Source: Thermobispora bispora DSM 43833
GTDB lineage: Bacteria > Actinomycetota > Actinomycetes > Streptosporangiales > Streptosporangiaceae
Direction: 5' to 3'
DNA: 64,000 bases
NCBI RefSeq assembly: GCF_000092645.1
Contig: NC_014165.1
Span: forward strand, 3,534,001 to 3,598,000
Position 1 is the stretch's first letter, and each line of letters begins with the position of its first letter. The notes under the pieces are model-generated. The model ran no database searches. It was not told the DNA's origin and saw nothing but the letters and a program-made list of their open reading frames with translations. Shown here in pieces: positions 30,147-58,517 of the stretch. The translations under genes were made by a program, and so were the position numbers.

Positions 30147-30190
30147 GTCAACCTAGGTTGACATCCGGAGGCGCGTCAACCTAAGTTGAC
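30147..30190 (+). promoter_or_regulatory. Twin palindromic operators and promoter of the HTH / Clp-N operon
   Basis: GTCAACCTAGGTTGAC (30147-30162, perfect palindrome) and GTCAACCTAAGTTGAC (30175-30190, one mismatch) lie 28 bp apart centre to centre, just before the ATG at 30194. The first contains a TTGACA box at 30158-30163, and 17 bp later CTAAGT could serve as the -10, which would put the transcript start near or at the ATG, giving a leaderless message. The repeated operators suggest autoregulation by the HTH protein. Confidence 0.7.
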
Positions 30191-30193
30191 AGC

Positions 30194-35831: not shown

Positions 35832-36084
35832 GCGCACCCACCACATCACGGGCCGCCTCCACACCAACCCGGGCGCCCCCGGGGTCGCCCTGCTCACCCT
35901 CGGCGAGGTCAACGTCTGGGTCTACCCCCACGAAGTCCGGTGGGACTCCGGGCACCGTGACCCGCGCACCGGGCGCCCAAGCTGCGTCACCATGCCCCAC
36001 ACCAACCTGGCCCTGGTGGCGGCGCAGGTCGCAGCACGCTACAAGCTCCAGGCCGGGACGGCGGCCACCACCGGGCAGCGGTGA
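35731..36084 (+). CDS. Hypothetical protein in accessory island
   Basis: A 117-residue protein with VVDVARTLLGILERTHHITG then GVALLTLGEVNVWVYPHEVR, and a hydrophobic C-terminal helix. The ATG follows GGAGGAGGGCG. It ends with a 4-bp GTGA overlap onto the next gene, so the three small genes after XRE are one transcription unit. No family recognised. Confidence 0.55.
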   Translation: MTAPTITAPAGAPAQSRRTPTVVDVARTLLGILERTHHITGRLHTNPGAPGVALLTLGEVNVWVYPHEVRWDSGHRDPRTGRPSCVTMPHTNLALVAAQVAARYKLQAGTAATTGQR

Positions 36085-36369: not shown

Positions 36370-36705
36370 CCACAAGCACGGCTTGTTCGCGAGAACCAAG
36401 TGATCGCCGTGGAAGACCTGACCGTCCGCAACATGGTCAGAAACGGGCGGCTGGCCCGCGCCATCTCCGATGCGGCCTGGCGGGAATTCCGCTCGATACT
36501 GGAGTACAAAGCGGCCTGGTATGGCCGCGAGGTGATCGCGGTGGACCGCTGGTTCCCCAGCAGCAAGCTGTGCAGCGCGTGCGGTGCCCTGCAAGACGCC
36601 ATGCCGCTGAACGTCCGGCAGTGGACCTGCCCCTGCGGGGCAACCCACGACCGGGACGTTAATGCTGCAAGGAACATCCTCGCCGCTGGGCTGGCGGAGA
36701 GGTAA
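36370..36705 (+). pseudogene. TnpB (IS200/IS605 OrfB) C-terminal remnant
   Basis: The frame reads QARLVRENQVIAVEDLTVRN, then REFRSILEYKAAWYGREVIA, the zinc ribbon LCSACGALQ and CPCGATHDRDVNAARNILAA. These are the last part of RuvC-like TnpB, including the zinc fingers (Cys at CSAC and CPC) and the final Asp of DRDVNAA. About 280 N-terminal residues, including the first catalytic Asp, are missing. The GTG at 36400 could still begin a 101-residue peptide. TnpB is an RNA-guided nuclease; this copy cannot be functional. Confidence 0.85.
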
Positions 36706-42124: not shown

Positions 42125-43081
42125 TCAGCGGGTGGGCTCGGCGGGGTGCCGGGGCTCGTCCGGGTCAGGGCCGTCGAGCTGCTCCACCGGGGCGACGATC
42201 GTCTCGTCTCCCGCCGTGCCGTACGCCTGTGGGCGCTGATCCCCGTACGCCGGGTACCCCGGCTGGTACGCCTGCGGGTGGCCCTGGTAGGCCTGCGGGT
42301 ACGCCTGCGACGCCTGCGGGTACCCCTGCGGCGGCATCGGGCCGTACCACTGCGCCACCGGGTAGACGATCGGATAGGGCTGCACCGGGACGTAACCGAT
42401 CACCGGTGAGTACATCTGCCCCGCCGGATGCCCGGCCGCGGCGTCGGGCCGCGCGGGGACCGCGTGCCGGCCCGCGGCGGCGTGCGCCATCCTCCGCAGC
42501 CTTCCCTCCAGGACGAACCAGGCGAACAGCGCGAGCAGCGCGAGGATCGCCGCGGGGATCGCGAGCCGGTGGCTCAGCGTCACCTTGTCGTACTCGGGGG
42601 GCGCGTCCCGGATCTCGACCGCGGCCGTCTGCGGGTTCGGCTCCGCGAACGACACCACCGGGCTCGGCGTGGGCGACGGCTCCGTGGCGGTCGGCAGCGA
42701 GACCGACGGCTGGGGCACCTCCACCGACGGCTCCACCGACGGCGTGGTGATCGCCTGGGTCCGCTCCTCCGGCGTCGGCAGGGCCGGCAGGGTGACGGTG
42801 GCGGTGGGCAGGGGCACCGCGGTCGGCGACGGGGTGATCGTGACGGTCCGGGTCACCACCGGCTCCGGCTCCGGGCTGGTCGGGCCGACCGTGGGGGTGA
42901 TCGTCTGGGTGACGGTCACCGTGACGGCGTCACAGGGCTGGCCCGGGGCGCACGGCTCGATCGGCTCGTTGTCCGCCGCATCCGCCCGGATCATGAACCC
43001 GGCGAGGACCACGATCAGCCCGGCGAGCAGCACGGAGGCGGTCGCCGATAACGCGGCTCGCACCCATGCGCGCCCGTTCAC
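42125..43081 (-). CDS. Two-helix membrane protein with Pro/Thr-rich ectodomain and Tyr/Pro/Gln-rich tail
   Basis: The 318-residue protein has an N-terminal helix (about residues 10-30), a Ser/Thr/Pro-rich extracytoplasmic part (TVTVTQTITPTVGPTSPEPE), a second helix (about 170-190, LAIPAAILALLALFAWFVLE), and a cytoplasmic tail with repeats YPQAYQGHPQAYQPGYPAYG. Unknown function; the Pro-Gln-Ala-Tyr repeats suggest a flexible interaction tail. It starts 91 bp downstream of the NUDIX gene, on the same strand, and could belong to the secretion-like cluster. Confidence 0.6.
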   Translation of the reverse strand: MNGRAWVRAALSATASVLLAGLIVVLAGFMIRADAADNEPIEPCAPGQPCDAVTVTVTQTITPTVGPTSPEPEPVVTRTVTITPSPTAVPLPTATVTLPALPTPEERTQAITTPSVEPSVEVPQPSVSLPTATEPSPTPSPVVSFAEPNPQTAAVEIRDAPPEYDKVTLSHRLAIPAAILALLALFAWFVLEGRLRRMAHAAAGRHAVPARPDAAAGHPAGQMYSPVIGYVPVQPYPIVYPVAQWYGPMPPQGYPQASQAYPQAYQGHPQAYQPGYPAYGDQRPQAYGTAGDETIVAPVEQLDGPDPDEPRHPAEPTR

Positions 43082-43171: not shown

Positions 43172-43564
43172 TCAGCTCCAGAGCAGTTCCTCGACCGCCG
43201 CGATCACCGGGCGGTCGGCCGGGAGCCACTCCACGTCGTACAGCTCGTCCCGCGCGAGCCAGCGCAGCGCGAGATGCTCGTGCGGGCGGGGGATGCCCAG
43301 CGTGATACCGGCGAGCCAGACCCGCATGACATAGCCGTTCGGCAGCGGCCAATCGGCCCCCACCTGCCGCCCGAGCGCGATCTCGATGCCGAGCTCTTCC
43401 TCACACTCGCGCGCCAGGGCCTGCTGATCGGTCTCCCCAGGGCCGACCTTGCCGCCCGGGAGCTCCCACGCACCCCGCAGCTCGGGGGGCGCGGATCGCT
43501 GTGCGGCGAGCAGCCTGCCGTCCTGGACGATCGCGGCCCCGACGACCACCTTTCGCATCTTCAC
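43172..43564 (-). CDS. NUDIX hydrolase, MutT-type
   Basis: A 130-residue NUDIX protein. The signature GGKVGPGETDQQALAREC then EEELGIE (about residues 37-60) is complete. The length and KVVVGAAIVQDGRLLAAQRS resemble MutT/CTP-type (deoxy)nucleoside triphosphate pyrophosphohydrolases that sanitise nucleotide pools. GTG start at 43564 (or ATG at 43558). It lies 6 bp downstream of the SLT-NlpC gene, so it shares that operon's transcript. Confidence 0.88.
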   Translation of the reverse strand: MKMRKVVVGAAIVQDGRLLAAQRSAPPELRGAWELPGGKVGPGETDQQALARECEEELGIEIALGRQVGADWPLPNGYVMRVWLAGITLGIPRPHEHLALRWLARDELYDVEWLPADRPVIAAVEELLWS

Positions 43565-43570
43565 CGCCGA

Positions 43571-44716
43571 TCACGTCATCGACCTCTTGAGCTGCGCGAG
43601 CACGTACTCGTTCTCCAGCGGGCGGGTGAAGCCGACGAGGTTCGGCCGGTCGCGATAGGTGGTCACCTTGATCGGCCCGCAGCGCGCGCAGCGGGCCTCG
43701 ACCATCTTGCCCGGCGCGACGACCAGCCCGACGTGCCCGGGACGGTCGATCGACGTGCCCGGACCGGCGTTGAAGAACACCAGGTCGCCCGGCCGTTCGC
43801 TGCCCGGCTCGATCCGGACGCCGAACGGCCACTGCTCGAACGTCGTCCGCGGGATCGTCAGCCCGGCATGCCGGTAGGCCATGTAGACGATGCCCGAGCA
43901 GTCGAAGGCGTCCGGCCCCGTCCCACCCCACCGGTACGGCTTGCCGCGCTGCGCCAGAGCATATTCGAGAATTTTCTTCACTACTTCATCGGTGGCCGCG
44001 TCCAGGTAGCCGGGCTGGCAGAACGGGTCGGCCTCGGGCGGGGCCCCAATGTCCCCGGTGGCCGAGTACCGCCGGGCGATCTCCAGTACCTGGTCGACGT
44101 ACCAGGTGGCCCGGTTGTAGACGAACAACGCCCGCCGCAGGTCGTCGGGGGCGCCGTTGCGCTTGAGCATCCGCGCCGCGCCGAGGATCGCGTCCGCGGG
44201 CTCGTAGACGTCCGCGTACCCGTCGCCGTTGCCGTCCGAGGCGTAGCCGTTGACCTTCTCGGTCATCTTGATCTTCGGCTTGCCGCCCCAGGTGCTGATC
44301 AGGAACTGCATCGGCCCGGCCGCGCCGGCGTAGTTGGTGCCGCTCTTCACCCCGGGCAGCGTGGAGCGGCCGTGATCGGTCTCACGCTTGCCGATGGCGG
44401 CGAGCACGTTCCACTGGACGCCGACCTCCTGCCCGAACTTCTTGTACAGCTCCAGGTAGTCGGGCGGGATGTCCTCCCGGGCGGTGCTGGAGACGTCGGC
44501 GTCCGAGATGGACGTATCCGTGCAGCTCTGCCGCGACCCCCCGCCGAAGAGACCGGAGGGGAGCGGGGTCATGAGGATGAGCGAGGCGAACAGCACCAGG
44601 GGCATCAGCCCGCCGACGACGATCACGAGCCGCCAGGGGATCGCGCTCTCCCGGCGCGGGCCGGGGAACGGCCGGTACCCCGGCCGCAGCGGCGGCAGGC
44701 CCGGTGGTGCGCTCAC
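43571..44716 (-). CDS. Bifunctional lytic transglycosylase / NlpC-P60 peptidase
   Basis: The 381-residue protein has a membrane helix (about residues 28-50), a transglycosylase-like domain with Glu in AAIGKRETDHGRSTLPGV (about 108-125) and PMQFLISTWGG, and an NlpC/P60 domain with catalytic Cys in FDCSGIVYMAYRHAG (about residue 270) and His in RPGHVGLVVAPGK. It should cut both glycan and peptide of the cell wall. In Tcp-type conjugation the equivalent protein is TcpG, which opens the wall for the secretion channel. Its start overlaps the VirB8-like gene stop by 4 bp. Confidence 0.88.
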   Translation of the reverse strand: MSAPPGLPPLRPGYRPFPGPRRESAIPWRLVIVVGGLMPLVLFASLILMTPLPSGLFGGGSRQSCTDTSISDADVSSTAREDIPPDYLELYKKFGQEVGVQWNVLAAIGKRETDHGRSTLPGVKSGTNYAGAAGPMQFLISTWGGKPKIKMTEKVNGYASDGNGDGYADVYEPADAILGAARMLKRNGAPDDLRRALFVYNRATWYVDQVLEIARRYSATGDIGAPPEADPFCQPGYLDAATDEVVKKILEYALAQRGKPYRWGGTGPDAFDCSGIVYMAYRHAGLTIPRTTFEQWPFGVRIEPGSERPGDLVFFNAGPGTSIDRPGHVGLVVAPGKMVEARCARCGPIKVTTYRDRPNLVGFTRPLENEYVLAQLKRSMT

Positions 44717-45360
44717 GGGGCGGAGTCTCCCTCCTGACCGGCGCTCGCGGGCTGGATGTCGTAGACCCGCCAGTCGTCTCCCACCCTGATCACGGTCACC
44801 GCGTAGTCGTCGTTCTCCTCCCGCTGGCCGCGGGTGTCCGTCACCCGCCGGGTCAGCCGTACGACGAAGGTCACCTGCTGCGCGGACATGTCGCGGATCA
44901 GCGACACCTTCGCCGACCCCTGCGAGACCACCTGGTCGGCACGGTTCTGCTGCACCGCCGCCGGGTCGGTCACCGCTCGGGTGAGCTGCTCACCCAGCTC
45001 CTGGGTGGCGAACGCCTTGAGCCGCTCCGCCACGGTCACCGGGTCCTCGTCGTGCCGGAAGGTCCCGTACGCCGCGGTGAACCGGCGGGCGAGATCGGCG
45101 GCTGCGCCGAGCTCCTCCCGCGACAGCGGCAGGTAGGCGTAGACGTCGAAGGTGGGCGGCGTGGTCGCCACCCGGGAGGGGGCCGGGCTCGGCGCGGGGG
45201 TGGACACGGCCGTGGTGGCGCTCACCGCGCGCTCCCCCGGCTCGTCGCGCCCGGCCTGCGGCGGCGGGCTCATCGTGAGGTAGATGCCGGCGGCCGCGAG
45301 CACGGCGACGAGCCCGACGAACGCCGCCACCTTCACCCGGTCGTTGCTCGATGTGGTCAT
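44713..45360 (-). CDS. VirB8/NTF2-like membrane protein
   Basis: A 215-residue protein with an N-terminal membrane helix (about residues 9-29) and a Pro/Ser/Thr-rich spacer, then a compact domain (about 85-210) with RFTAAYGTFRHDEDPVTVAE and TFVVRLTRRVTD, ending DYAVTVIRVGDDWRVYDIQP, like NTF2/VirB8-type secretion subunits. Family placement is inference. It sits 21 bp downstream of the VirB6-like gene and overlaps the hydrolase start. Confidence 0.65.
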   Translation of the reverse strand: MTTSSNDRVKVAAFVGLVAVLAAAGIYLTMSPPPQAGRDEPGERAVSATTAVSTPAPSPAPSRVATTPPTFDVYAYLPLSREELGAAADLARRFTAAYGTFRHDEDPVTVAERLKAFATQELGEQLTRAVTDPAAVQQNRADQVVSQGSAKVSLIRDMSAQQVTFVVRLTRRVTDTRGQREENDDYAVTVIRVGDDWRVYDIQPASAGQEGDSAP

Positions 45361-45381
45361 GGGGCGTCACGTCACCGGCGG

Positions 45382-47355
45382 TCAGTCGCCGGACCTCCGA
45401 TCGGCCTGCTTGGCCCAGAAGAGGGCGGGGGCGTCGCCGGGCGACCTGGCGGCGTCCCGGCGGGGCAGCCACAGCGGGGGCGGGGTGGCGTGCGATCCGC
45501 CGTCGGCCGCGGACCGGCCGCTCCCGCCGGATAAACCGCCGTTCGCGGCGGCGCCGCTCACGGCCGAGGCGCGCCCGCCGACCCGGGACCCGCCGAGGTT
45601 GAGCGGTGGGGCGCTCCCCGGGCGCGGCGCGGTGCCGGCCGCCTTCCGCCGGCCGGGCTGCCCGTCCGCGTCCAGCGGGGCCTGCTGCCCACCGGCCCGG
45701 GCGCCCTGCCCGGGCGCGCCCTCCTCGGCGCGGAGCCGGGACTGCGCCACCGCGGCCGCGGCCGCCCCGCTCGCCGCCATCGCGGTCGCGCCGAGCGCCG
45801 TCTCGGCCTTGCGCAGCCCCCAGCGCCCGGCCCGGGCCGGGGAGATCGGCGGCAGCACCCCGCCCACCCGGCTGAGCGTGGGCGCGGTGGCCGCCTCCCC
45901 CAGCACCCGCGTGGTGATCGTGTGGCCGTCGATCGAGGCGAACAGGTGCTGGAACGGCCGCCGGTAGAAGAAGACCGCGATGGTGAGCAGCGCCATGAAC
46001 AGGATCTGCATCCCCCACGGCAGCCCGGTGGAGATGATCAGGGCGTAGCCGTACACCAGGATGCCGAGCGCGAGGGCGAGCACGGCCTGGCGGAGCAGCG
46101 TGCCGATGAGCATCTCCAGCCATCGCATCGAGATGATCCGCCCGGAGCCCGGGTGCACGCCGATCAGCAGGAACACCGGCCCGAGCATGATGAGGAGCAG
46201 GAAGCCGACCTTGAGCACGAGCAGGGAGACCGCGACCAGGAATATCAGCACGCCGGCGACCATGGCGGCGATGAACGCGCCGATCGCGATGCCGAGGCGG
46301 CTGGTCCAGTCCTTCCCCTGGAGCAGGTAGAACACCGGGGTCTTCTCCAGGGGCTTGACGATCTCCTCCTCGAACCGCTTCTGGTGGGCGTCCCCGGTGG
46401 GGAGCTGCTTGGCCGCCTGCTCCTCCTTGTCGATGGCCTGGATGTCGAGGAGCTTGGCGCCGTACTGGCGCACCAGCGGGTCGTTCGGGTCGGCGGTGCC
46501 GAACTCGCCCATGAGCCAGGGCTTGCACACCAGGGTGGACCAGAGCGCGTCGGCGTTCTGCGCCACCCCGGGCGTGCCGGGCTGGCCGTACCCGCCGCCC
46601 TTCACCTCGGCGGTGGTGTCGCCCTTGACCGGCAGGCAGGAGGTGCCGCTCGCCCCGGGCAGCCCGGCGAAGGCCGAGTTGATGATCTCCCCGGTCTTGT
46701 CGGTCACCGCCTTGCCGAGCCCGGTGAAGTCGCCCGGCCGGCTGAAGAACCAGATCGCCACGGTGACCGCGAGCACCATCCAGATGACGCCCTCGGTCGT
46801 GGTGGTCGCTCGTTTGCGGATCAGCCCGTACCAGGCGAGCCAGATCGCGCCGAGGATCACGATCGGCCGCAGGTACGGCCAGTACATGGCGTTGGCCAGG
46901 TTGACGACGATGTCGTCGACGACCTCTTTGATCGGCTTGAGCGGGCCCTCGGTCGCCGCCGCCTGGTAGGTGGTGATCGTCACCCGGTCGATGGCCTTCG
47001 CCCAGGAGAAGACCGTGTTCGCCCAGGCGTTGCCGAGCACGGCGGCGATGTCGGAGCACCCGAGGTCGTAGGTGTGCCAGAACTGGCCCGCCATGCCGTA
47101 CCGGTCGTAGTTGGTCAGCTGCGCGGTGCCGCCGGGGGTGTCGGTCTCCGGGGGCGGCGGCTGGACCAGGCCGTCCACCCCGCCGCCGACGATCTCGGGG
47201 GCGAGGTCGGACGACAGGTCACAGGGCCCGATCGCGGTGGCGACGCGTGTGGGCAGGGCGATGGGCAGCGCCACGAACGCCGCGATGAGCACGAGGAGCA
47301 CGGCCAGCTTGCGGCGGCCCTTCAGCCGGCCGAGACCCTTCCTGCGCACCCTCAA
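45382..47355 (-). CDS. VirB6/TrbL-like polytopic membrane protein
   Basis: The 657-residue protein has an N-terminal signal or helix (about residues 17-42), an external loop with Cys residues, and several helices (PYLRPIVILGAIWLAWYGLI, VIWMVLAVTVAIWFFSR, then the IGAFIAAMVAGVLIFLVAVS and LLIMLGPVFLLIGV region). The last 130 residues are disordered and Gly/Ala-rich. This is the plan of VirB6/TrbL/TcpH inner-membrane channel subunits. The TTG start follows AGGAGGTGCGGTC and overlaps the VirB4 stop by 4 bp (TTGA). Confidence 0.78.
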   Translation of the reverse strand: MRVRRKGLGRLKGRRKLAVLLVLIAAFVALPIALPTRVATAIGPCDLSSDLAPEIVGGGVDGLVQPPPPETDTPGGTAQLTNYDRYGMAGQFWHTYDLGCSDIAAVLGNAWANTVFSWAKAIDRVTITTYQAAATEGPLKPIKEVVDDIVVNLANAMYWPYLRPIVILGAIWLAWYGLIRKRATTTTEGVIWMVLAVTVAIWFFSRPGDFTGLGKAVTDKTGEIINSAFAGLPGASGTSCLPVKGDTTAEVKGGGYGQPGTPGVAQNADALWSTLVCKPWLMGEFGTADPNDPLVRQYGAKLLDIQAIDKEEQAAKQLPTGDAHQKRFEEEIVKPLEKTPVFYLLQGKDWTSRLGIAIGAFIAAMVAGVLIFLVAVSLLVLKVGFLLLIMLGPVFLLIGVHPGSGRIISMRWLEMLIGTLLRQAVLALALGILVYGYALIISTGLPWGMQILFMALLTIAVFFYRRPFQHLFASIDGHTITTRVLGEAATAPTLSRVGGVLPPISPARAGRWGLRKAETALGATAMAASGAAAAAVAQSRLRAEEGAPGQGARAGGQQAPLDADGQPGRRKAAGTAPRPGSAPPLNLGGSRVGGRASAVSGAAANGGLSGGSGRSAADGGSHATPPPLWLPRRDAARSPGDAPALFWAKQADRRSGD

Positions 47356-49829
47356 GACCGCACCTCCTGCGCGACCTCAGACCGACCACCGGTGCCCCCG
47401 TCAACATGATCATGCCCATCGCCCGGCTTTTCGCGCGTGGGGTTCGTGTCGAACCACCGCAGCAGCTCCTCCGAGATCAGGTCGACCCCGATCCGGCCGG
47501 CCCGGCCGTCAAGATCCCGGAAGATGCACTCCCCGTTGCCCAGCGAGCGCAGCACGGCCTTGTGCTCCTCGGACGGATCCACGCCGAGGAGCTCCATCAC
47601 GTGCTCCACCTCCACCCGTTCGGTCGAGCGGAAGGCGAAGACCGAGGAGAGGCAGTTGGTCACCTGCTCGTTCAGCAGGTCCCCCGCGTTCTGCGAGACC
47701 AGCACCAGCGCGGTGTTCCGCGACCGGCCCATCCGGGAGACCTCGGGCACGAGCTTGGCGCCCTCCGGGGTGGAGGTGATCGCCCACGCCTCGTCCAGGA
47801 AGATCGCCTTCGGTGTCCGCCGGTCGAGCCCGTTCATCAGCCGCCGGGCGAACTGGGACACCAGGTAGAGCAGGGCGACCGAGAGCCGCTGCTCGTAGGA
47901 GTAGTCGTCCCGCGGTGTCACCACGTCGGGGAGGGTCAGCCCGTCCAGGGTGAAGACCGTGGTCCACCCCTCGATGTCGATCCGCTCGCCGCCCGACGGG
48001 TCGAAGCAGAGCCGCGCCAGGTGCATCTCGGACATCGACCGCAGCACCGCGCCGAGGTTCTTCGACGCGGCGTCCGGCGCCCGCTCCAGGTACTCCACGA
48101 CCTTGCCGAGCGACGGAGACGGCTCGGCCGAGACGGCCGCGACCGCCTGGATCATCGCGGACTCCCGCTCCTCCGACATCCGCGGGAGGAGCAGCCGGAG
48201 CGTCTCGGTGGCCATGGTCCGCTTCGCCGCGATGTCGTCGCCGAAGGAGAACGGGTCGAGCAGGCCCGGGGCCGCCGTGCCCAGCGGGATGATCCGCGCC
48301 TTCCGGCCCCGCCGCCGCAGCAGCTCGACCAGCGACTGGGCGTCCCCCTTGGGGTCGATGACCACGATGGTCACCCCGCGCAGCGCCATCTGGTAGATCA
48401 GCAGCATCGCGAGGGTGGTCTTGCCGCCGCCCGGCTCACCGGTGATCGCGATCGCCGTCGGGCGGTTCCGCGCCGCCGCCACCAGCGGGTCGAAGTGGAC
48501 GACGCTCCGCGCCCGCCCCAGCGTCTCCCCGATGTACGGGCCGATCCACCCGGCGTTCGACTCGTCCACCCGGTCGCCGAGCTCCACGGTGGCCGTGGCC
48601 ATGCCGCCGGCGATCGTGCGGAGCGGCTGCCGCTGGGCGTACGCGTTGACCCGCAGCCGCTCCCCCGGCAGGGACTCGCAGAACAGCGAGAACTGGTCGC
48701 CGGTGGAGTTGACCACGTCGATGCCGAGGTCGCGGTAGTGCTCGATCACCGCCTCGACCCGCTGGATGCACATCTCCTCGGTCGGGGCGCTCACGCTCAG
48801 CCGGTGCCAGCCGTACACGAACGGCAGGCGTTCCTTGGTGATGCCGTGCTCCAGCGCCCGGGCGGCGTCGATCTGCTCGGCGAGGGCGAGCGGCGCCTCG
48901 GCCCCCGCCTCCCGGATGTGGATGTCCATGTCCCGGGCGTGCGCGAGCTTGCGCGCCACGTCCTTGCTCGCGCGCACCGGCGGGATCAGCCGCATCCGGC
49001 TCGACACCTCGACCGGGAAGGGGAGCTGGTCGGCGAAGTGCAGCCAGGGTTCGCCGTCCGGGAACGGCATGAGGTCGGGGAACCGGGCGAACGACAGGAA
49101 GGCGACGTACGCCTCGCCGTACGGCTGCTCGATCCGCAGCAGGGAGCGGCCGTTGTGGATCTGGCCCTCGACCAGCGCCTCGATCTCGCCCCTCCCCCAG
49201 CGGCGGCGCGGGGTCGCCGAGGGCCGCTGGTCGCCGAGCCCGCCGGACGCGGCGTGCTGGAACAGCCAGGCGATCTCGTCGGAGGTGGCGTGGCGGGCGT
49301 AGAGCGCGCTCGAGGCGAGCGCCCGGCCGAGCCGCTCGGCGGCCTCGGTCCACCGCTCGATCTCCCGCTCGGGCACGTGGTCGTCCTCGATGCCGAGCGC
49401 CTTCTCCCCCCGCTGGTACAGGCCGAAGAGCTGGGCGAGCACCCCGGTGCCGAGCTGCGCGCCACGCGGGCCGAGCCGGACCCCGAGGTAGACCTCCTTG
49501 GTCCAGAAGTCCTTGGCCCAGACGTGCCGGTACATCTCCTCCAGGTACTCGCGCCAGCCCGGGCCGCCGTCGGAGGTGGCGTCGAGCGCCATCGCCCACT
49601 CGGCGGCCGGGTAGGGCCGGTGGGCCACCCGCAGGTGCACCTCGGCGTCGGGCATCCGGATCGCCGCGAGCGCGATCGTGATGTTGTTCGCGAGGGCCTC
49701 GCGCTCCTCGGGGGTGAGGAACTCGTAGCTCACGGTCGGCAGCCGGAAGTAGGCCCACGCCGCTGAGTCGGTGAGGAGGATGCGGTCGTCGAAGTACCGC
49801 ACGGCGAGCCGGCTCCTGGCCCTGCTCAT
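47352..49829 (-). CDS. VirB4-type conjugation ATPase
   Basis: An 825-residue ATPase with the P-loop AIAITGEPGGGKTTLAMLLI (about residue 465-475) and the Walker B region PKAIFLDEAWAITSTPEGAK (about 672-690), followed by SRMGRSRNTALVLVSQNAGD. The N-terminal 300 residues match the SCO6880-like/VirB4 non-catalytic part. VirB4 (TcpF) powers assembly or substrate movement in type IV secretion. It overlaps the VirB6-like gene by 4 bp and follows the TcpE-MinD gene after 112 bp. Confidence 0.85.
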   Translation of the reverse strand: MSRARSRLAVRYFDDRILLTDSAAWAYFRLPTVSYEFLTPEEREALANNITIALAAIRMPDAEVHLRVAHRPYPAAEWAMALDATSDGGPGWREYLEEMYRHVWAKDFWTKEVYLGVRLGPRGAQLGTGVLAQLFGLYQRGEKALGIEDDHVPEREIERWTEAAERLGRALASSALYARHATSDEIAWLFQHAASGGLGDQRPSATPRRRWGRGEIEALVEGQIHNGRSLLRIEQPYGEAYVAFLSFARFPDLMPFPDGEPWLHFADQLPFPVEVSSRMRLIPPVRASKDVARKLAHARDMDIHIREAGAEAPLALAEQIDAARALEHGITKERLPFVYGWHRLSVSAPTEEMCIQRVEAVIEHYRDLGIDVVNSTGDQFSLFCESLPGERLRVNAYAQRQPLRTIAGGMATATVELGDRVDESNAGWIGPYIGETLGRARSVVHFDPLVAAARNRPTAIAITGEPGGGKTTLAMLLIYQMALRGVTIVVIDPKGDAQSLVELLRRRGRKARIIPLGTAAPGLLDPFSFGDDIAAKRTMATETLRLLLPRMSEERESAMIQAVAAVSAEPSPSLGKVVEYLERAPDAASKNLGAVLRSMSEMHLARLCFDPSGGERIDIEGWTTVFTLDGLTLPDVVTPRDDYSYEQRLSVALLYLVSQFARRLMNGLDRRTPKAIFLDEAWAITSTPEGAKLVPEVSRMGRSRNTALVLVSQNAGDLLNEQVTNCLSSVFAFRSTERVEVEHVMELLGVDPSEEHKAVLRSLGNGECIFRDLDGRAGRIGVDLISEELLRWFDTNPTREKPGDGHDHVDGGTGGRSEVAQEVRS

Positions 49830-49941
49830 CGGTCACCCACCAACTTCCCCGTCCACGGTTGCACGCACCCGTCGCCGCCCGCCCGGCGCGGTCCCCCGCG
49901 CGGTCCGCTCGCACCCGTCGAGCCGGGCACCGCCCCTGGGC

Positions 49942-52722
49942 TCACTTGGCGACCTCCTCCTGGGCCTGGATCGAGGCGAGCGTGCTCACCAGCACGCCCG
50001 CCAGGGCAACGTACGCTCTGCGGCCGCTCATGCGCAGGTGATCGAGATCGACCGGGCCGGGCCGGCCAGGGGCGAGCGCGTCCTCCCAGGGCACCCGGAC
50101 GATCGCCCGGCATCGGCCGCTCGCCACCGCCTCCGCCTGCTCGACGTCGGCGAGGCTGCGCCGGCTCACCCCGTTGACCACCAGCACCGCGCGGCGCCGC
50201 AGCTCCGCGCAGCCGTGCCCGTCGAGCCACTCGAAGGTCATCGCGACCGCGTTCGCCGCGTCCTCGCTCGCCGGGGCGACCAGCACGAGCTGGTCGACGT
50301 ACGGCAGGAGCCGCCCGGCGACCGCGGCCGCCGGGTCGATCACGGTGATCCGGTAGTGCCGGTCGAGCACGGCGAGCGTGCGCCGCCAGTCGGCGAGGAA
50401 GGAGAGGTCGGCGAGGCGCTGCGGCGCGTGCACGTCCGGGTCGGCGCCCACCACCTCCAGCCCGGACTCGCACCGGCTGGTGAACGCCCGGATGCCGAGG
50501 TAGCCGGTGACCGTCTCCGAGCTCTTCAGCAGGGAGGTGAGCGTCTCCGGCGACTCGGCCGCGATCTTGCTGGTGAGCGTCTCCTCACCGCTGTTCGCGT
50601 CGAGGGCGACCACCCGGTCGTCGCGGTAGCGGGCGAGCGTGTGCCCGAGCATGAGCGCGGTGGTCGTCTGCCCGGCGCCTCCCGCGCAGCCCAGCACCAT
50701 GATCCGCCGGCTCTCGGTGAGCGGGGTGCGGGCCCGCTCGATGTCGAGCTCCATCGTGTCGGTACGGCTCCCGCCCACGACCACCTGGGCGAGCCGCCGC
50801 CAGCCGCCCGAGGAGCCGCGCCCCACGACCGCCTCCACCCGGCGGAGCCGGACCGGCTCCTCGGCGGAGCCCCGGCCCTGGGCGACCAGGCCCGGCGGGC
50901 CGCCGGGCGTGACGGGGTCGGTGACCGCCCGGATCGTCACCCCGGGTGCGGGCTCCCGGGGTTCAGCGGAGCCGGGGCCGCGGTGCGGAGCGGTGCCGGA
51001 GGCCGGGCGGCGGGCCGGGGAGTCCTGCGGCCCGAGCGGGCGCGGCCGGCCCTGCCGCTCCTGTGCCCCGGGGCGGGGCGCAGGCGGCGGGTAGGGCCGG
51101 GGCGGGCGGCCCTTCCGGTGCTGCTCCCAGGCCTTCCTCCGCCACTCGGCCGCGTCGTCGCCCGCGTCCTGGGCGGCGGTGTCCTCCGGTTCCGGCCGGG
51201 CGGGATCGGTGGGCTCGGGATCGGACCGGGCGGCCGGTTCGGCGGGCCGGGCCCGCTCCGCCTCGGGGCGGGCATCGGCCCGGTGGGGCCGCTCGCCGTC
51301 GCCGGGGTGGGCCTGCTCGTCGCCGTGGCGCGCGTCATCGCGGTGGGCCGGCTCGCCGCCGGGGCGGGTGTGCTCGTCCCCGCGGGCCGTCTCGCCGCGC
51401 CGCTCCTCGGCGGGACCGGGCGTGCTCCCGAGATCCGCCCGGTCGTCCGCGGTGCTCGCGGCGCGGAGCGGGATGACCGTCCGCTCGGCATCCCTTGGCG
51501 CTGGGTCCGATGCCGTCGGTGCGGGGTGCGGGGCCGGCTCCGCGTCGGCGGCGCCGGTCCGGTGGGTCCGCTCCCGGCCTGCCTTCCCCCGCGGGGATTC
51601 GGCGCTCGCGGCCAGCCTGCGCAGCCGGCGGATGGTCTCGGCGCCCAGGAACGCGGCCTTCCGGCTCGGGACGTCCTCGTCCGGGGAGCTCGGCGCGTCC
51701 TCGTCCGGGGAGCTCGGCGCGTCCTCGTCCGGGGAGCTCGGCGCGTCCTCGGCCACGGACGGCGCCGGCGGTGGCGCGGGCTCGGCGGCCTCCGCATGCG
51801 CCCGTGCCGGAGACGGGGCGGCCGGCTCCACCGGTGCGGGGGCCTGCTCCGCCTGAGGCGGCGCCGCGACCTCGGCCGGTCCGGTGTCCGGAGCCCGGGA
51901 GGAGAGCGCGGCCGCTGCGGCGTCCGTCCGCGCCTCCGCGGGAGCCCCGGCCGCATCGCCGGCCGGCGCGGTGGCCTGCCGAGCCAAGGCGACGACGGCG
52001 GGCCGGGTGGCGCCCGTCTCCACCGGCTCCGCAGCCCCGGCCTCCCGCTCCTCCGGCGCGGAGGGCTCTCCCGAGCGGGACGGTGACGCCACCGGGAGCG
52101 GCAGCGGCGGGGCCGCGTCCGCGGTCCGCCCGGCCGCCCGGCGCGGGGCCGGCCGGACGTCCGCCACCGTCGCCTGCTCTTCGGCGGTCCGGTCACCGGC
52201 CGCCCGGTGCGGGGCGTCCCCGGCGTGCCGTACCTGGTCCACGGTGACGGGCTCGGCGAGCGGTACGGCCGCGGCGCCCTGGAGGAGCGCCCGCGCGGGC
52301 AGGGCGTCGCGCCGGAGCAGCGGGGCCCGCACGGCGCCCCGGGCCGCGACCTGGGCGCGGGAGCGCCAGACCCGCACGGTGAACGCGATCTCGTCGGGCT
52401 CCCGCTTCGGGGCCATCCGGCACCACGTCCGAGGCTCCACCAGGTAGCGGAGCTGGGACTGGAGCAGCTCGGTCAGGCGCTTGCTCTCGATCACCGGCCG
52501 GGTGGAGAGCCAGGTCAGGACGCCGGGCGGCACCAGGTACACCACGTGCCACGGCGCGTCGAACGGCAGCCCGACCAGCCAGAGGAGGAGCCACCAGGGG
52601 ACCGAGACACCCACGAACACCCCGATCCAGACGATCGGAAGCGGCATGGGGAGCCGGAGGTCGTACAGCTTGTACAGCCGCTTCTCGATCCGCCAGATGT
52701 TGGTGTACGTAGGTAGGTCCAC
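49942..52722 (-). CDS. TcpE-like membrane domain fused to a MinD-like ATPase domain by a long disordered linker
   Basis: The 926-residue protein starts with a TcpE-like segment of two helices (about residues 28-75, LPIVWIGVFVGVSVPWWLLL). Residues about 120-640 are Pro/Ala/Glu/Arg-rich and include three tandem DAPSSPDE units. Residues about 665-926 form a MinD/ParA-like domain with MVLGCAGGAGQTTTALMLGH, DANSGEETLTSK and YRITVIDPAAAVAGRLLPYV. The P-loop reads GAGQTT, with Gln in place of the catalytic Lys, so ATPase activity is doubtful. The GTG follows GGAGGGGAGAG. The DNA encoding the tandem units is at 51671-51742. Confidence 0.75.
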   Translation of the reverse strand: MDLPTYTNIWRIEKRLYKLYDLRLPMPLPIVWIGVFVGVSVPWWLLLWLVGLPFDAPWHVVYLVPPGVLTWLSTRPVIESKRLTELLQSQLRYLVEPRTWCRMAPKREPDEIAFTVRVWRSRAQVAARGAVRAPLLRRDALPARALLQGAAAVPLAEPVTVDQVRHAGDAPHRAAGDRTAEEQATVADVRPAPRRAAGRTADAAPPLPLPVASPSRSGEPSAPEEREAGAAEPVETGATRPAVVALARQATAPAGDAAGAPAEARTDAAAAALSSRAPDTGPAEVAAPPQAEQAPAPVEPAAPSPARAHAEAAEPAPPPAPSVAEDAPSSPDEDAPSSPDEDAPSSPDEDVPSRKAAFLGAETIRRLRRLAASAESPRGKAGRERTHRTGAADAEPAPHPAPTASDPAPRDAERTVIPLRAASTADDRADLGSTPGPAEERRGETARGDEHTRPGGEPAHRDDARHGDEQAHPGDGERPHRADARPEAERARPAEPAARSDPEPTDPARPEPEDTAAQDAGDDAAEWRRKAWEQHRKGRPPRPYPPPAPRPGAQERQGRPRPLGPQDSPARRPASGTAPHRGPGSAEPREPAPGVTIRAVTDPVTPGGPPGLVAQGRGSAEEPVRLRRVEAVVGRGSSGGWRRLAQVVVGGSRTDTMELDIERARTPLTESRRIMVLGCAGGAGQTTTALMLGHTLARYRDDRVVALDANSGEETLTSKIAAESPETLTSLLKSSETVTGYLGIRAFTSRCESGLEVVGADPDVHAPQRLADLSFLADWRRTLAVLDRHYRITVIDPAAAVAGRLLPYVDQLVLVAPASEDAANAVAMTFEWLDGHGCAELRRRAVLVVNGVSRRSLADVEQAEAVASGRCRAIVRVPWEDALAPGRPGPVDLDHLRMSGRRAYVALAGVLVSTLASIQAQEEVAK
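51671..51742. repeat. Three 24-bp tandem repeats inside the TcpE-MinD linker
   Basis: The unit GCGTCCTCGTCCGGGGAGCT plus CGGC occurs three times head to tail (51671, 51695, 51719) with a partial fourth at 51743. In the minus-strand reading frame it encodes DAPSSPDE repeats. The near-identity between units points to recent slippage. Confidence 0.9.
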
Positions 52723-52743
52723 CCGACTCTCCCCTCCGCGTGA

Positions 52744-53034
52744 TCACTTGATGCCCAGCGCGGTCGCGATGGCCTTCGCCGTCACCTCGATGATGTTCGG
52801 CACGTAAAAGATCACGCCGATCCCGATCGCGAGCAGGATGAACTGCACGAACTTCGTGATCTCGCGGGTGAAGAGGAAGAAGATGGCCACCACGGAGACG
52901 ACGGCGAGGAAGAGCGGGGCGAAGAACCTCCGCAGGAAGTCGGCGAGGCCCTCGGTGTCGATACCGGGGGTCGGCGGGGGTGACGTGGGCGCGGCCAGGT
53001 CAATGAGGCCGTCCACCAGCGTTTGCAGAATCAA
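52744..53034 (-). CDS. Small two-helix membrane protein, VirB2/TcpD-like position
   Basis: A 96-residue protein with a helix-rich C-terminal part: FFAPLFLAVVSVVAIFFLF and FVQFILLAIGIGVIFYVPNI, preceded by a Pro/Ser/Thr-rich N-terminus. The size and place between TcpC and TcpE suggest a small channel or pilin-like subunit. TTG start with GGGAGGG 7 bases upstream. Assignment is by context. Confidence 0.6.
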   Translation of the reverse strand: MILQTLVDGLIDLAAPTSPPPTPGIDTEGLADFLRRFFAPLFLAVVSVVAIFFLFTREITKFVQFILLAIGIGVIFYVPNIIEVTAKAIATALGIK

Positions 53035-53084
53035 TTCTCGCCCTCCCGGGGGAGTGGAACAGCGATGTCATGATCGAGCATGCG

Positions 53085-54104
53085 CTACCCCGCGGACCGA
53101 TGCGCACCTTGGATGTCCTTGACGAACCACTTGCCACCCTGCTTCTCCATGGTGAGCCGGTAGGCCTGCTCCAGGCTCGCGGGCTCCGTGACCGGGTCGC
53201 CGGGGGTGGCGCTCGGGGCGGGCGTCGCCTGCGACTCGACGGCCCACACGACGACGGCGGTGACCACCCTGCTGTCCTCCGGGCCGGGCGGCACGATGAC
53301 GTCCTTGAGCTGGGCGAGCGTGATCCCGCCGCCGAACCCCTCGATCGGGGCCCCGTTCACCACGTACCGCTGAAGGTCGACCTGGTCGCCTGCGGCGTAC
53401 GCCTTGAAGAACCCCTCGAGCTGCGGGCGGAGCTCCGCCTCGGCGGCCGAGTCGCGGTCCGGCTCCGGGAGCTGCGGCAGCCCCGCCGGGCCCGAGGCCG
53501 GGAGCATCGCCGGCCGGCCCGAGACCACGAACCTGCCCCCGTCGTGGTAGATCGGCACGGAGAGCAGGCCCCGGGTGCCGCCCGACTGGTACATCACGGT
53601 CACCCGGGCGTTGTTGGCGTCGGTCACCTCGATGCCGGCGAACTGGAGGGCGCCCGCCGACATCCGCCCGTACCCGTTCCAGCCGAACTGGGCGTCCGCG
53701 CCTTCGGGGAGGAACGGCCGCAGCCGCTCCGCGCGCTGCTGCGGGTTGGCCGCGTCGTAGTTGAGGTAGACCGCGGCGAACTGAATGGCGAACGCCGCCC
53801 CCTGGGTGACCGGGAACCCGAGATCGCTCGGCGTGGCCGAGGTCGCGGGAGCCCCGGCGTCCCCGCGCATCCGCTCGAACGGCGCCCGCACCCCGTTGAC
53901 GACGATCACTATGATCAGGGCCCACAGGATGGCGCGGCCGATCCAGACCAGCCAGCGCCCTCCACCGCCGCTCCAACCGCCGGCGCGCCGGAACGAGGCG
54001 CCGTGCGCGGCGTCCCCCCGATCAGCGGCGTCGGGAGGATACGACTCGGGGTCGCCAGCGATCCGCCGCGGATTCTGCTGGACCGTTGACCTGCGAGTCA
54101 TCAC
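53085..54104 (-). CDS. TcpC-family conjugation protein
   Basis: A 339-residue protein with an N-terminal basic/disordered stretch, one membrane helix (about residues 50-72, LVWIGRAILWALIIVIVVNG) and two tandem NTF2-like domains (residues about 95-200 and 215-335; QGAAFAIQFAAVYLNYDAAN and RPQLEGFFKAYAAGDQVDLQ). TcpC forms the membrane scaffold in Clostridium Tcp-type transfer and related Tn916 systems. It is the first gene of the minus-strand cluster; GTG at 54104 (ATG at 54101). Confidence 0.8.
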   Translation of the reverse strand: MMTRRSTVQQNPRRIAGDPESYPPDAADRGDAAHGASFRRAGGWSGGGGRWLVWIGRAILWALIIVIVVNGVRAPFERMRGDAGAPATSATPSDLGFPVTQGAAFAIQFAAVYLNYDAANPQQRAERLRPFLPEGADAQFGWNGYGRMSAGALQFAGIEVTDANNARVTVMYQSGGTRGLLSVPIYHDGGRFVVSGRPAMLPASGPAGLPQLPEPDRDSAAEAELRPQLEGFFKAYAAGDQVDLQRYVVNGAPIEGFGGGITLAQLKDVIVPPGPEDSRVVTAVVVWAVESQATPAPSATPGDPVTEPASLEQAYRLTMEKQGGKWFVKDIQGAHRSAG

Positions 54105-55885
54105 GCCTCCGCTCGCGCCTTTCCCCCTTGCCGGCGCGGTGTCTCACTCTCGATCCGGTTAGCCGTATCGAATTATTCACTCTAGCCGTCTGGTCAATTC
54201 TTCCAGGTAAGCCACGCCCATGGTGCAAGCATCGCCGTGAGCGAGCAAACCAGGTCTAGATGCCGTTGAGACGGCCCACTCCTATCCACTCCGGCGGAAA
54301 AGCGCGTTGCGCCTGGCCAGGGCGTTCTCGGATTACCCCACCGCCATGTATTGCTATCCCGGCGTTCCGTCCGGGTGCCGTACGGGCGGCGCGCGCCATC
54401 CCTGCTGCAGGCTCCTCGGGTGCGCGACCTGCGGCGTTCGCCCTGATGGGCCGCCTCTGATGCCGCGCCGTGGCGCTCCCCGTCACCGGGCCGTGCCGCC
54501 GTCCGCCGCGCGGGCGTCCGGTACGGCGATGCCGTACGGCCCGGCACGGGAGCGCGGTGTACCGCGGGCCGGCACGGCCGGGCCTCCGGTGGGCGCGGTC
54601 TCCTCGGCCATGCCTCCGGCGCCCGTCCCGGTGGGCGGCCTGGTGCCCGGCCGTACGCGCCCGGCGAGCCGTACCGCCGCGCCGCGCGAGGCGGCAGCGC
54701 GATCGCAGTGCGCGGCCTGCATCAGGGCCACCGGCGACCGGGCATCACCACCCGCCCGGGACGGCCACACCACTGAAGACACCTTTCATCCCCTATCGGG
54801 TTTCCCACGGTTTCCGCGAGGGTTCTTTCCCAGGAAATGGCCGTTCAATTGCGGTTTAATCAGCCCAGAGACGGGGGAATGGCGCGAAGGGTGATATCCC
54901 AGTGACCCGATAACCGGTTCCATCGGCCGGCGCTCCGGTAATCGCCCGCTCACGGTTCCGTGCCGGCACGTGCACCGCATGCCGGTCATCCGGTATTCGC
55001 GCTTTTCTTCCCGGCCGGATCGGCCCGCCGCCGAGCCCGCCACGGCGTGCATGTTTCCGCGAGGCGTATCGCACGCGGCGCGCCGAATGGCCGGGATCAG
55101 GCGGAAAGGACGAGGTGAGGGCGGTGGCCCCCGGGGAGAGACCGGCCACCGCGGGAGCCCGCGGACCGGCCCGCGGCTCATCCGGGCGCGCGAGGGGTGC
55201 TCGCGCTGACGGCACGGCGCCGTCCGCGGCCGGCCCATCGGGGCGCGCGAGGGTTGCACCGGGCATACCGCCGAGGAGCGCTCGCGCATCACCCGGAGCT
55301 CCACGACGTGGTGGCGCACCACGTGAGCGCGATGACCGTGCCGGGTGAGCGTGATGACCGTGCCGGCCGCGGCCGCGCGCGGTCGGGCGCCCTCCGATCG
55401 GAGATGACGGGGCGGACGCGCACGCGGCCCCACGGCGGCGCCGCCCGCCCCTGACCTTTGCGGACGGCGCACCGGATGGCGGCACAGGGCACGGCCTCCG
55501 GCACGCGAGAGCCCGCGCGCAGCCACGGCATCGACCCCGTGCACAGCACGGCATCGACCGGCTCCGGCCGCGCAGAGAGGACGGCCGCATGCCGGCATCG
55601 CCCCGGCGGCCGGGACGTCCCGGGGATCCCGGTCCGGAGGACGGCTGCGGCCCAGCACGTGACCGCGGCGTCGTTCTGGCCGGTGGAGGCGCCGGGCCGG
55701 CCGGACGCCGGCGCCTTCGGCATCCCCGGCAGCACGGTGGACACGCAGTCCCAGCGGCTCGCGAGAAGACCCGAGACGCCCGGGCGATGATCATCCGCGA
55801 AAAGACCGCCGGAGGGACGGCAGCCGGGGGCGAGCCCGTCAGGCCGCGCGACCGCTCAGAGGTGACCGCTCAGCGGTGCGAGCGC
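54105..55885. other. 1.78-kb gap without convincing genes
   Basis: The stretch 54150-54270 is AT-rich compared with the rest and is the likely promoter region of the TcpC operon. From 54270 to 55885 the sequence is GC-rich. Open frames here have unusual composition (many Pro, Arg, Cys) and no recognisable domain. Short repeated words occur, for example GGGCGCGCGAGG at 55187 and 55245. I found no RNA gene or terminator of note. Confidence 0.5.
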
Positions 55886-56974
<1,089 letters not shown>

Positions 56975-57176
56975 GTAGGCCGAGTCTACGGGCTGCCGAG
57001 CGCATGCCGGACCACGGCCACCCGCCGGCGGGCCCCGGACCGGCCGGAGCGGGCCCCTGATCCGGTACGGCACGGCCGCCCGGCGAGGGCATCGGCACCC
57101 GCGATCCTCGCCCGTACCGCGCCGCCTGCGCGCGCCTCCCGGCAGGGCCGCCGGTTGGCTGAAATCATACGAATCC

Positions 57177-58517
57177 GTGGACGTCATGGCTTTGCTGCTC
57201 GGGCTCGCCATCGGGCTCGCCGCCGGGCTGGTCATCGGCGCCGCGCTCGCCCGGGCGCGCACGGCCGGCGCGGCGGCCGAGGTCGCCGCCCGGATCGCGG
57301 AGGCGGAGGCGCGGCGGCGCGCCGCCGAGGAGAAGGCGGCCTACGTGGAGTCCCAGCTCACCGAGCGCTTCCAGGCGATCTCCGCCCAGGTGCTCGACGC
57401 GAGCAACCGGCGCTTCCTCGAGCTCGCCGAGAGCAGGCTGAACACCACGCGGGCGGAGGTGGCCGGGGACCTCGAGCAGCGCCGCCAGGCGGTCGAGACG
57501 CTGATCACCCCGATCAAGGAGACGCTCGCCAAGGTCGAGAGCCGGCTGCGGGAGAGCGAGGCCGGCGCCCGGGCGGCGCGCGCCGAGCTGACCACGCAGA
57601 TCGAGCTCGTCCGGCGCAGCTCGGAGGAGCTCAAGGCCCAGACGGCCGCGCTGGTCCGGGCGTTGCAGCGGCCCGAGGCGCGCGGCCGGTGGGGCGAGCT
57701 CCAGCTCCGCCGGGTGGCGGAGCTCGCCGGGATGGCCCGGTTCTGCGACTTCGACGAGCAGGCCGGCGCGGCCACCGGGGACGGTGCGGTCCGCCCGGAC
57801 ATGGTGGTACGGCTCAGCGGCGGCAAGAACATCGTCGTCGACGCGAAGGTCCCGCTCAGCGCCTACCTGGAGGCGGCCCAGGCCGCCGACCCGGACGTGG
57901 CCGCCGCCCGGCTCGACGCGCACGCCCGCCACCTGCGCGAGCACGTCGACCGGCTCGCCGCCAAGGCGTACTGGCAGGCGTTCGACCCGGCGCCGGAGTT
58001 CGTGGTGCTGTTCATCCCCGGGGAGGCCTTCCTCGCCCCCGCGCTGGAGCGCGACCCCGAGCTGCTCGAGTACGCCATGCGCAAGCGGGTGCACATCGCC
58101 ACCCCCACCACGCTGATCACGATGCTGCGCACCGCCCAGTACGCCTGGCAGCAGGAGGCGATCAGCGAGCACGCCAAGACGGTCCTCCGGCTCGGCAAGG
58201 AGCTGTACGAGCGGCTCGGCCGGCTCGCCCGGCACCTCGACGAGCTCGGCAGGGCGCTGGGGCGGGCGGTGACCGCGTACAACCGGACGGTCGGGTCGCT
58301 GGAGAGCCGGTTACTGGTGAGCGCGCGGCGGCTGCACGAGCTCGGGCTCACCGACGGCCCGCTCGAGGCGCCGGCCCAGGTGGACCAGGCGCCGCGGCAG
58401 GTCGTGCCCCCCGAGGCCGGCGACGCCGCGCTACCCGCGCTTGACGAAGGTGAAGAGAGCGTAATCTCCCCGCCCCTGTCCCGCCAGAACGGTAAATTGA
58501 CCCGCGACTCGGCCTAA
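57177..58517 (+). CDS. rmuC: DNA recombination protein RmuC
   Basis: The 446-residue protein has an N-terminal membrane helix (about residues 4-26), a long coiled coil (about 30-150) and an endonuclease-like core: RWGELQLRRVAELAGMARFC, VRPDMVVRLSGGKNIVVDAK (Asp and Lys of a PD-(D/E)xK-like site) and FVVLFIPGEAFLAPALERDP. RmuC limits recombination at repeated DNA. GTG start at 57177, divergent from ychF with a 202-bp promoter gap. Confidence 0.9.
   Translation: MDVMALLLGLAIGLAAGLVIGAALARARTAGAAAEVAARIAEAEARRRAAEEKAAYVESQLTERFQAISAQVLDASNRRFLELAESRLNTTRAEVAGDLEQRRQAVETLITPIKETLAKVESRLRESEAGARAARAELTTQIELVRRSSEELKAQTAALVRALQRPEARGRWGELQLRRVAELAGMARFCDFDEQAGAATGDGAVRPDMVVRLSGGKNIVVDAKVPLSAYLEAAQAADPDVAAARLDAHARHLREHVDRLAAKAYWQAFDPAPEFVVLFIPGEAFLAPALERDPELLEYAMRKRVHIATPTTLITMLRTAQYAWQQEAISEHAKTVLRLGKELYERLGRLARHLDELGRALGRAVTAYNRTVGSLESRLLVSARRLHELGLTDGPLEAPAQVDQAPRQVVPPEAGDAALPALDEGEESVISPPLSRQNGKLTRDSA

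Follow-up and report, generated by a model that had tools for sequence, protein, structure and literature searches.

A chromosomal Tcp-type secretion channel with a TcpE-MinD fusion, very probably domesticated, in Thermobispora bispora and the order Streptosporangiales

Here we report the analysis of a seven-gene cluster at positions 43571-54104 (minus strand) of a 64,000-nucleotide stretch of the Thermobispora bispora DSM 43833 chromosome (contig NC_014165.1, positions 3,534,001 to 3,598,000; hereafter the window), which encodes the channel of a type IV secretion system (T4SS) of the MPF-FA (Tcp) type. Sequence comparisons indicate that the cluster is almost certainly domesticated and not mobile, because its VirB4 ATPase occurs across the whole order Streptosporangiales, the gene order is constant, a third family of the order has no cluster beside ychF, and the ratio of nonsynonymous to synonymous substitution rates (dN/dS) of virB4 is 0.07. 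A sequence-only reading of the window, made by a model from the letters and their open reading frames (ORFs), had proposed a domesticated apparatus rather than a mobile element, and the fixed distribution, order and chromosomal site of the cluster support that proposal. What is new, as far as the sequences tell, is a MinD domain fused to TcpE that has lost both P-loop lysines, as opposed to the separate intact MinD proteins of related plasmids; a literature search of limited scope found no title or abstract describing an order-wide channel cluster with such a fusion.

In a survey of 1,124 genomes, few T4SSs were found in Actinobacteria, and other modes of transfer in mycelia were suggested (portions of PMC3158045). 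The cluster described here makes a T4SS channel part of the core machinery of nearly every member of a whole order, and its VirB4 is conserved to the degree of a respiratory enzyme subunit. If DNA moves through it, these bacteria, which we take to be rich in antibiotic gene clusters, would possess a housekeeping DNA-exchange system; if proteins move, it would be an order-wide T4SS exporter of monoderm bacteria. In addition, the pseudo-MinD fusion offers an unusual lead on the positioning of a secretion machine.

The channel genes and their fixed place in the order

The seven same-strand genes were identified from the window ORFs and searches against Pfam and NCBIfam profiles, and run from tcpC (first) to nlpC (last) in the following order.

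53085-54104, minus strand: TcpC (VirB8-like), first gene of the run; PF12642, E 1.6e-15
52744-53034, minus strand: 96-aa membrane protein in a TcpD-like position; ORF similar to a 72-aa Bacillus plasmid protein
49942-52722, minus strand: TcpE (VirB3-like) fused to a MinD-like domain; PF12648, E 5.6e-21
47352-49829, minus strand: VirB4 ATPase; PF12846, E 1.7e-69; P-loop GEPGGGKTT and Walker B intact
45382-47355, minus strand: VirB6-like polytopic membrane protein; TrbL PF04610, E 3.9e-06, above cut-off
44713-45360, minus strand: second VirB8-like protein, 215 aa, N-terminal helix and NTF2 fold; AlphaFold2 model, mean predicted local confidence (pLDDT) 84.7
43571-44716, minus strand: SLT lytic transglycosylase and NlpC/P60 wall hydrolase (VirB1-like); PF00877, E 7e-19; PF13406, E 7.6e-06

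A TcpF-like VirB4, VirB6, TcpC, TcpE and SLT-NlpC are thus encoded together and in the gene order of plasmid-borne members, which is the make-up of an MPF-FA channel module, whose component roles we take from PMC12857230. The family E-values, together with the conservation of gene order in relatives, exclude a chance grouping of the seven genes. All the genes that the sequence-only reading had seen in one direction were recovered at their positions, and its match to the channel of Tcp conjugation agrees with the family assignments and with the order and similarity of the Bacillus plasmid modules described below; of the several 4-bp overlaps it had mentioned, just two exact ones were counted (nlpC/virB8-like and virB6/virB4). 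TcpC is the sole PF12642 match in the genome. The VirB4 protein scores 250.8 bits against the NCBIfam TcpF model, below the model's own cut-off of 1100, and the VirB6-like protein matches the CD3337/EF1877 model with E 1.9e-22, below the cut-off of that model. The 215-aa protein has no Pfam family above cut-off; its predicted structure has the single N-terminal helix and NTF2 fold of VirB8, and its best structural matches in the PDB (Foldseek) are DotI, IcmL-like proteins, the VirB8 domain of PrgL, and CagV, so the run holds two VirB8-like subunits. In the SLT-NlpC protein the Cys and His motifs are kept, with DCSG and GH invariant in 21 sequences.

Queried with the window VirB4, 339 of the order's 345 genomes gave a match: 338 of 341 from the same family, the single genome of a second family, and none of the three of a third. 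This is not the sporadic distribution expected of a conjugative element. The three same-family genomes without a match are 67-74% complete; among the three of the third family, two have a completeness of 97% or more and still gave none. In a sample of the class, 57 of 394 genomes match VirB4 (E 1e-20), of which 41, all from the same family, share 78% identity or more; the remaining 16 reach at most 33%. The genes keep the same order across 20 regions that represent 20 genera (the broad sample), the exceptions being a locus at a contig end that has no copy of the first three genes (L042) and a locus without the MinD domain (L056). All 55 full-length named loci contain every part, ordered and on one strand; these all come from the near clade. 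Among the 283 named relatives that a VirB4 alignment retrieved, the top 80 belong to Microbispora, Sphaerimonospora, Planotetraspora, Nonomuraea, Streptosporangium and genera like them.

The chromosomal site is bounded by two genes lying outside the cluster.

55886-57262, minus strand: ychF, conserved neighbour beyond tcpC; PF06071 and MMR_HSR1
43172-43564, minus strand: Nudix hydrolase, neighbour at the nlpC end; PF00293, E 3.8e-18

The ychF gene stands beside the tcpC end in 13 of the 20 broad-sample regions and 46 of the 55 near-clade loci, some of the others ending within the fetched stretch or contig, while sdhB is nearby in 5 of 20 and 46 of 55, respectively. Of the two flanking core genes named by the sequence-only reading, sdh is thus found chiefly among near relatives, which makes ychF the more reliable anchor. 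Three stretches from the third family, one of just 6.3 kb, keep the ychF-rmuC-ispH-xseA surroundings with no cluster there. In the outgroups G045 and G123 a Nudix homologue lies 2-7 kb from ychF, in stretches without any cluster-gene match, and in G123 this gene is followed by sdhB-sdhA within about 8 kb of ychF. These comparisons agree with a single insertion, placed between ychF and the Nudix gene and older than the split of the two carrying families. A fixed position across Streptosporangiales was what the sequence-only reading had put forward as a check on domestication, and the constant gene order, the VirB4 count and the site beside ychF all point that way.

Median dN/dS values were obtained for Microbispora species by a simple counting method (15-21 pairs each) for seven parts, TcpE not being among them: virB4 0.074, the MinD domain 0.106, the small protein 0.150, tcpC 0.214, nlpC 0.238, virB6 0.282 and the VirB8-like gene 0.352. 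As yardsticks, sdhB gave 0.142 and sdhA 0.161; the ychF value of 0.230 comes from 4 sequences and was not used. The motor is thus held tighter than a core enzyme and the wall-side parts less so. The 21 VirB4 sequences compared agree at 425 of 825 residues, including the P-loop and Walker B, and the median identity of VirB4 to the window among the named loci (87.3%) equals that of SdhB (87.1%).

Other VirB4-containing clusters were also observed. Second VirB4 matches are present in a number of genomes of the order-wide set; in G275, the second VirB4 is 29% identical and belongs to a separate Tcp-type cluster (L094) with an unfused TcpE, below the Pfam cut-off, and an SLT-NlpC protein. Two genomes of a different family (G223 and G123; L088 and L089) have a cluster in similar surroundings with a 32% identical VirB4 and a 120-aa protein that we take for PrgI-like, although it matches no Pfam family; L088 additionally has an M23 peptidase. 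This cluster is possibly a second, independent domestication.

DNA-processing genes and related systems

No genes for integration or DNA processing were found around the cluster. The window has no tRNA gene, the longest word common to both flanks, at 12 bp, does not exceed the mean of 12.4 obtained from 50 shuffles, and no integrase or relaxase was detected by a Pfam scan of 24 window ORFs outside the cluster (at least three of them probably not genes), a scan that did not extend to the genes at 1-26 kb, 26025-26468, 30176-30595, 35731-36084 and sdhA. The genome searched is complete, a single contig of 4,189,976 bases, and holds no match to the relaxase families PF03432, PF08751 and PF02486, PF13814 and other MOB families lying outside the genome-wide search; likewise, a VirD4-type coupling protein (PF12696) has no match in it. 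The sequence-only reading had noted that no DNA-processing gene, integrase or att repeat was in view, and these searches agree with it. FtsK-like, EccC-like and HerA/DUF87 proteins are encoded in the genome, none of them linked to the cluster. The 592-aa open frame with an FtsK/SpoIIIE match (G000:C1:99801), also unlinked, was considered as a universal coupling protein and left unsupported, since G376 has FtsK- and EccC-sized matches only, as read from frame sizes.

Among eight other complete or near-complete genomes of the same family, five (G021, G188, G198, G023 and G275) have no PF03432 or PF08751 match. All eight have VirD4-type matches, two of them weak, unlinked to virB4 except in G021, where a VirD4-type gene (L083:5150-6907, plus strand; PF02534, E 5.6e-27) lies about 4.5 kb beyond the chromosomal nlpC. 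This gene has a 74% identical relative in G023, unlinked to virB4, and the others compared are 26-30% identical (those of G012, G188 and G275 stood outside the comparison). A conserved VirD4-type partner of the cluster was rejected on these grounds of missing linkage outside G021 and mostly low identity. In G198, G406 and G376 (L103, L104 and L105), a VirD4-type protein occurs with proteins of about 490 and 516 aa in a T4SS-like cluster read as another kind, presumably SCO6880-like.

The closest match to the whole run was found on Bacillus plasmids, the B. subtilis MH-1 plasmid and pBM69, which have the seven parts in the same order and detectable similarity in all seven (SLT-NlpC compared with pBM69, the other six with the MH-1 plasmid). 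VirB4 is about 30% identical over 96%, and the remaining parts give E-values of 1.4e-17 (TcpC), 6.3e-09 (TcpE), 5.8e-10 (VirB6), 2.9e-09 (VirB8-like, a 211-aa plasmid protein), 4e-32 (SLT-NlpC) and 2.7e-05 over 31 residues (small protein). The plasmid order begins with a DUF87 protein and a replication-relaxation protein, continues after one or two small genes with TcpC, the small protein, TcpE and VirB4, and then has a protein of about 144 aa, one of VirB6 size and the protein of about 211 aa; in pBM69 the last is followed by a lytic transglycosylase/C40 protein, and the VirB6-sized protein is annotated as 'transposase'. In contrast, the window cluster has neither the upstream replication-relaxation and DUF87 genes nor the 144-aa gene between virB4 and virB6, its TcpE carries a MinD domain, and it is chromosomal and fixed. 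With the plasmid replication-relaxation protein taken for a putative relaxase and the DUF87 protein for a putative coupling protein, the channel half is complete in the window and the DNA-processing half gone; both plasmids are typed as non-mobilizable in PLSDB. By its component families, the cluster is also akin to MPF-FA systems of the ICEBs1 and pCW3 type.

A closer VirB4, 71-74% identical to that of the window, is encoded by three Nocardiopsis plasmids (NZ_CP099838.1, NZ_CP080600.1 and NZ_CP074136.1), each with a VirD4-type gene. NZ_CP099838.1, the one on which a relaxase was looked for, carries a MobF relaxase, the VirD4-type gene and a tyrosine recombinase, and is typed as non-mobilizable in PLSDB. 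It has homologous TcpC, TcpE, small membrane (60% identical), VirB6, SLT and MinD proteins, but TcpE (169 aa) and MinD are separate genes, the gene order is broken up, the SLT protein lacks an NlpC match, and nothing was matched to the 215-aa protein. In both NZ_CP099838.1 and NZ_CP080600.1 the separate MinD has an intact KGGVGKT(T) motif. An initial VirB4 tree with very long branches was set aside; in trees with the Bacillus plasmid VirB4s as outgroup, monophyly of the chromosomal copies was not rejected by the approximately unbiased test (p-AU 0.166), and for the rooting of the plasmid copies p-AU values of 0.166 and 0.165 leave more than one choice. Both scenarios, plasmids that preserve an older form and plasmids that took the channel from a chromosome, fit the tree, and the intact P-loop of the plasmid MinD speaks for the former. 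A candidate for a fourth plasmid, NZ_LT559118.1 (11.85 Mb, 87% VirB4 identity), was dropped as chromosome-sized.

The sequence-only reading would have given way to a relaxase and coupling protein linked to the locus in close relatives. None stands at the locus itself; elsewhere, one Nocardiopsis plasmid carries both (MobF and VirD4-type), and G021 has the VirD4-type gene nearby. These genes show kinship with a DNA-transfer system, and the order-wide fixed distribution stands.

Relaxase-less chromosomal T4SSs have precedents. The archaeal Ced and Ted systems are chromosomal T4SS derivatives that import DNA without a recognised relaxase and have VirB4 and VirB6 homologues, and Ted loci include a VirC1/ParA-like gene among their conserved genes (sections of PMC9905601). 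The window cluster, chromosomal, vertically kept and without the relaxase families tested, likewise fits a domesticated Ced-like T4SS of the MOBless type. It differs in that Ced/Ted have a VirB2-type pilin and demonstrated DNA import, whereas the cluster here is known from its genes. The T4SSs of Patescibacteria are monoderm-type, chromosomal and mostly without relaxase as well; they differ in their MPF-FATA kinship and their VirB3/PrgI-like, TrsD and VirB2-like parts, and the portions of PMC12102498 that describe them mention no TcpE-MinD fusion.

The MinD-like domain, the proposed mechanism and its rivals

In the fused protein, TcpE occupies residues 5-103 and the MinD-like domain about residues 655-926, with a long Pro/Ala/Glu-rich linker between them; where whole, the protein is 770-1729 aa long, a spread that comes mostly from the linker. 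The predicted domain (pLDDT 91.6) has the MinD/ParA fold, with Z of about 23 to Soj and MinD, and among the positioning ATPases Soj, MinD and FlhG the best Z is 22-24 over about 220-240 residues. MinD/ParA-type domains commonly position machines at poles or septa. Unlike these ATPases, the domain of the cluster is linked to a T4SS pore protein and has both P-loop lysines replaced: the window P-loop is GCAGGAGQT, and GAGQ[TS] was found in 20 of 20 rows having the MinD domain and in 18 of 18 in a second set. Since this motif replaces KGGxGKT in every row, both of its lysines are lost, and the deviant Walker A of MinD/ParA ATPases is absent from the fused domain. We infer that it acts as a locked adaptor.

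The explanation that best covers these results is a domesticated conjugative channel with a pseudo-MinD adaptor and a putative DNA cargo, to which, taken whole, we give an even chance. The complete, envelope-spanning channel half of an ancient Gram-positive conjugative element would have become fixed next to ychF prior to the split of the two carrying families, and been kept since then as a core cellular machine. The SLT-NlpC protein would open the wall, TcpC and the second VirB8 would line the path, and VirB6, TcpE and the small membrane protein would form the membrane pore, powered by VirB4, whose motor is intact by motif. The MinD-like domain, tethered to the pore by the flexible linker as a locked and probably non-hydrolysing adaptor, may place the channel at particular sites such as hyphal tips or septa, or dock it to a partner. 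The cargo of the channel might be DNA that passes from one hypha to its neighbour or enters the cell, like the DNA of archaeal Ced, and not a plasmid of its own; DNA as cargo falls a little short of an even chance. We slightly prefer DNA exchange to protein export, because the module descends from a DNA-transfer channel, one of the nearest plasmid cousins carries DNA-transfer genes, and Ced/Ted set a precedent.

Several observations weigh against this explanation. T4SSs without MOB genes are usually read as protein exporters (PMC3158045). A divergent coupling protein elsewhere in the genome is conceivable, as FtsK-like and HerA/DUF87 ATPases are encoded there. The MinD domain is missing in G014 and reduced in G013, so it is dispensable in places. 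In the best tree, the Nocardiopsis plasmid VirB4 pair falls among the chromosomal copies. Finally, tcpC, nlpC, virB6 and the VirB8-like gene (0.214-0.352) evolve faster than sdhA.

The G014 protein is an observation in its own right: its TcpE (L056:11227-11994) is 255 aa long without the MinD domain, a natural loss of the fusion partner.

The usual reading of T4SSs without relaxase also speaks for coupling-protein-independent protein export, in which Sec or another route would feed effectors or wall proteins to a channel that releases them into the medium or into neighbouring cells. We regard this as a possible alternative, tentatively ahead of the other rivals, and T4SSs without a coupling protein exist, namely Ptl and Brucella VirB (passages of PMC12102498). 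However, the run contains no conserved gene that looks like an effector, the adjacent 42125-43081 gene being limited to the near clade and fast-evolving, and DNA-transfer genes occur on one of the nearest plasmid relatives.

A combined reading is that the cluster is a bacterial counterpart of Ced, an order-wide, host-owned channel that is held by the pseudo-MinD and moves cellular DNA, with some plasmids plugging in with their own relaxase and coupling protein; we consider this doubtful as a whole. That the channel is a host-owned mating channel, used in trans by mobilisable plasmids with their own relaxase and coupling protein, is improbable. Such use is suggested by G012, in which the chromosomal VirB4 is 90% identical to that of the window and MobF-type and VirD4-type matches occur on a 62-kb contig (C1; L203-L206); these resemble their counterparts on a Nocardiopsis plasmid, and the contig has no VirB4, VirB6 or TcpC match. 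Yet this is a single case, on a contig that looks plasmid-like and like a repeated assembly of a unit of about 22 kb, with VirD4-type matches spread over several frames; moreover, a similar VirD4-type protein is found on the three Nocardiopsis plasmids, which bring their own VirB4, and use in trans gives no reason for the host to keep the channel.

Still less probable is a structural channel of hyphal growth or sporulation that crosses septa with no exchange between cells. Near-universality in an order that we assume to be mostly mycelial and sporulating, together with the polar and septal habits of MinD/ParA-type domains, would suit such a role, but there is no sequence tie between the run and development, and the motif of its leader (see below) is unique in the genome, so that no shared regulon is seen. 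The remaining idea, an immobilised or decaying integrative and conjugative element or an active mobile one, has in its favour the homology to conjugation genes and the presence of a TnpB fragment at a distance of about 7 kb from the cluster, and is already refuted, barring systematic misassembly of the genomes of the order, by the order-wide presence at a constant place and in constant order, the intact catalytic motifs, the median dN/dS of 0.07-0.35 over seven parts, and a flank repeat not above chance.

The leader and neighbouring features

The non-coding region immediately upstream of tcpC is conserved, and a further gene lies beyond the Nudix gene.

54105-54265, minus strand: conserved non-coding leader, candidate cis-regulatory element; aligned in 59 non-identical near-clade rows
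42125-43081, minus strand: signal/transmembrane protein with a Pro-Thr-rich middle; no family; in 7 of the 20 broad-sample regions, all near clade

The leader spans about 160 bases, and a search of 110 loci, far relatives, truncated loci and outgroups among them, recovered its core motif in 64. It has no Rfam match up to E 1. A search for a regulon by shared upstream motif returned only the leader's own site at up to 3 mismatches, and a Trp-rich leader peptide was rejected, as the short frame stops early in the window and in L040. The consensus fold (alifold, 51 rows) scores -20.6, below all 100 column shuffles (mean -5.8, standard deviation 3.0); the leader therefore shows fold potential in this model, and an RNA element is a candidate only. 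The 42125-43081 protein, confined to the near clade and with a dN/dS of 0.50, was not kept as a core part. Beyond sdh, a lower-GC patch contains the TnpB-type C-terminal fragment, a transposase remnant (36400-36705, plus strand; PF07282, E 4e-27), and an Arc-like gene and a weak PIN-domain gene lie near it at 33-34 kb.

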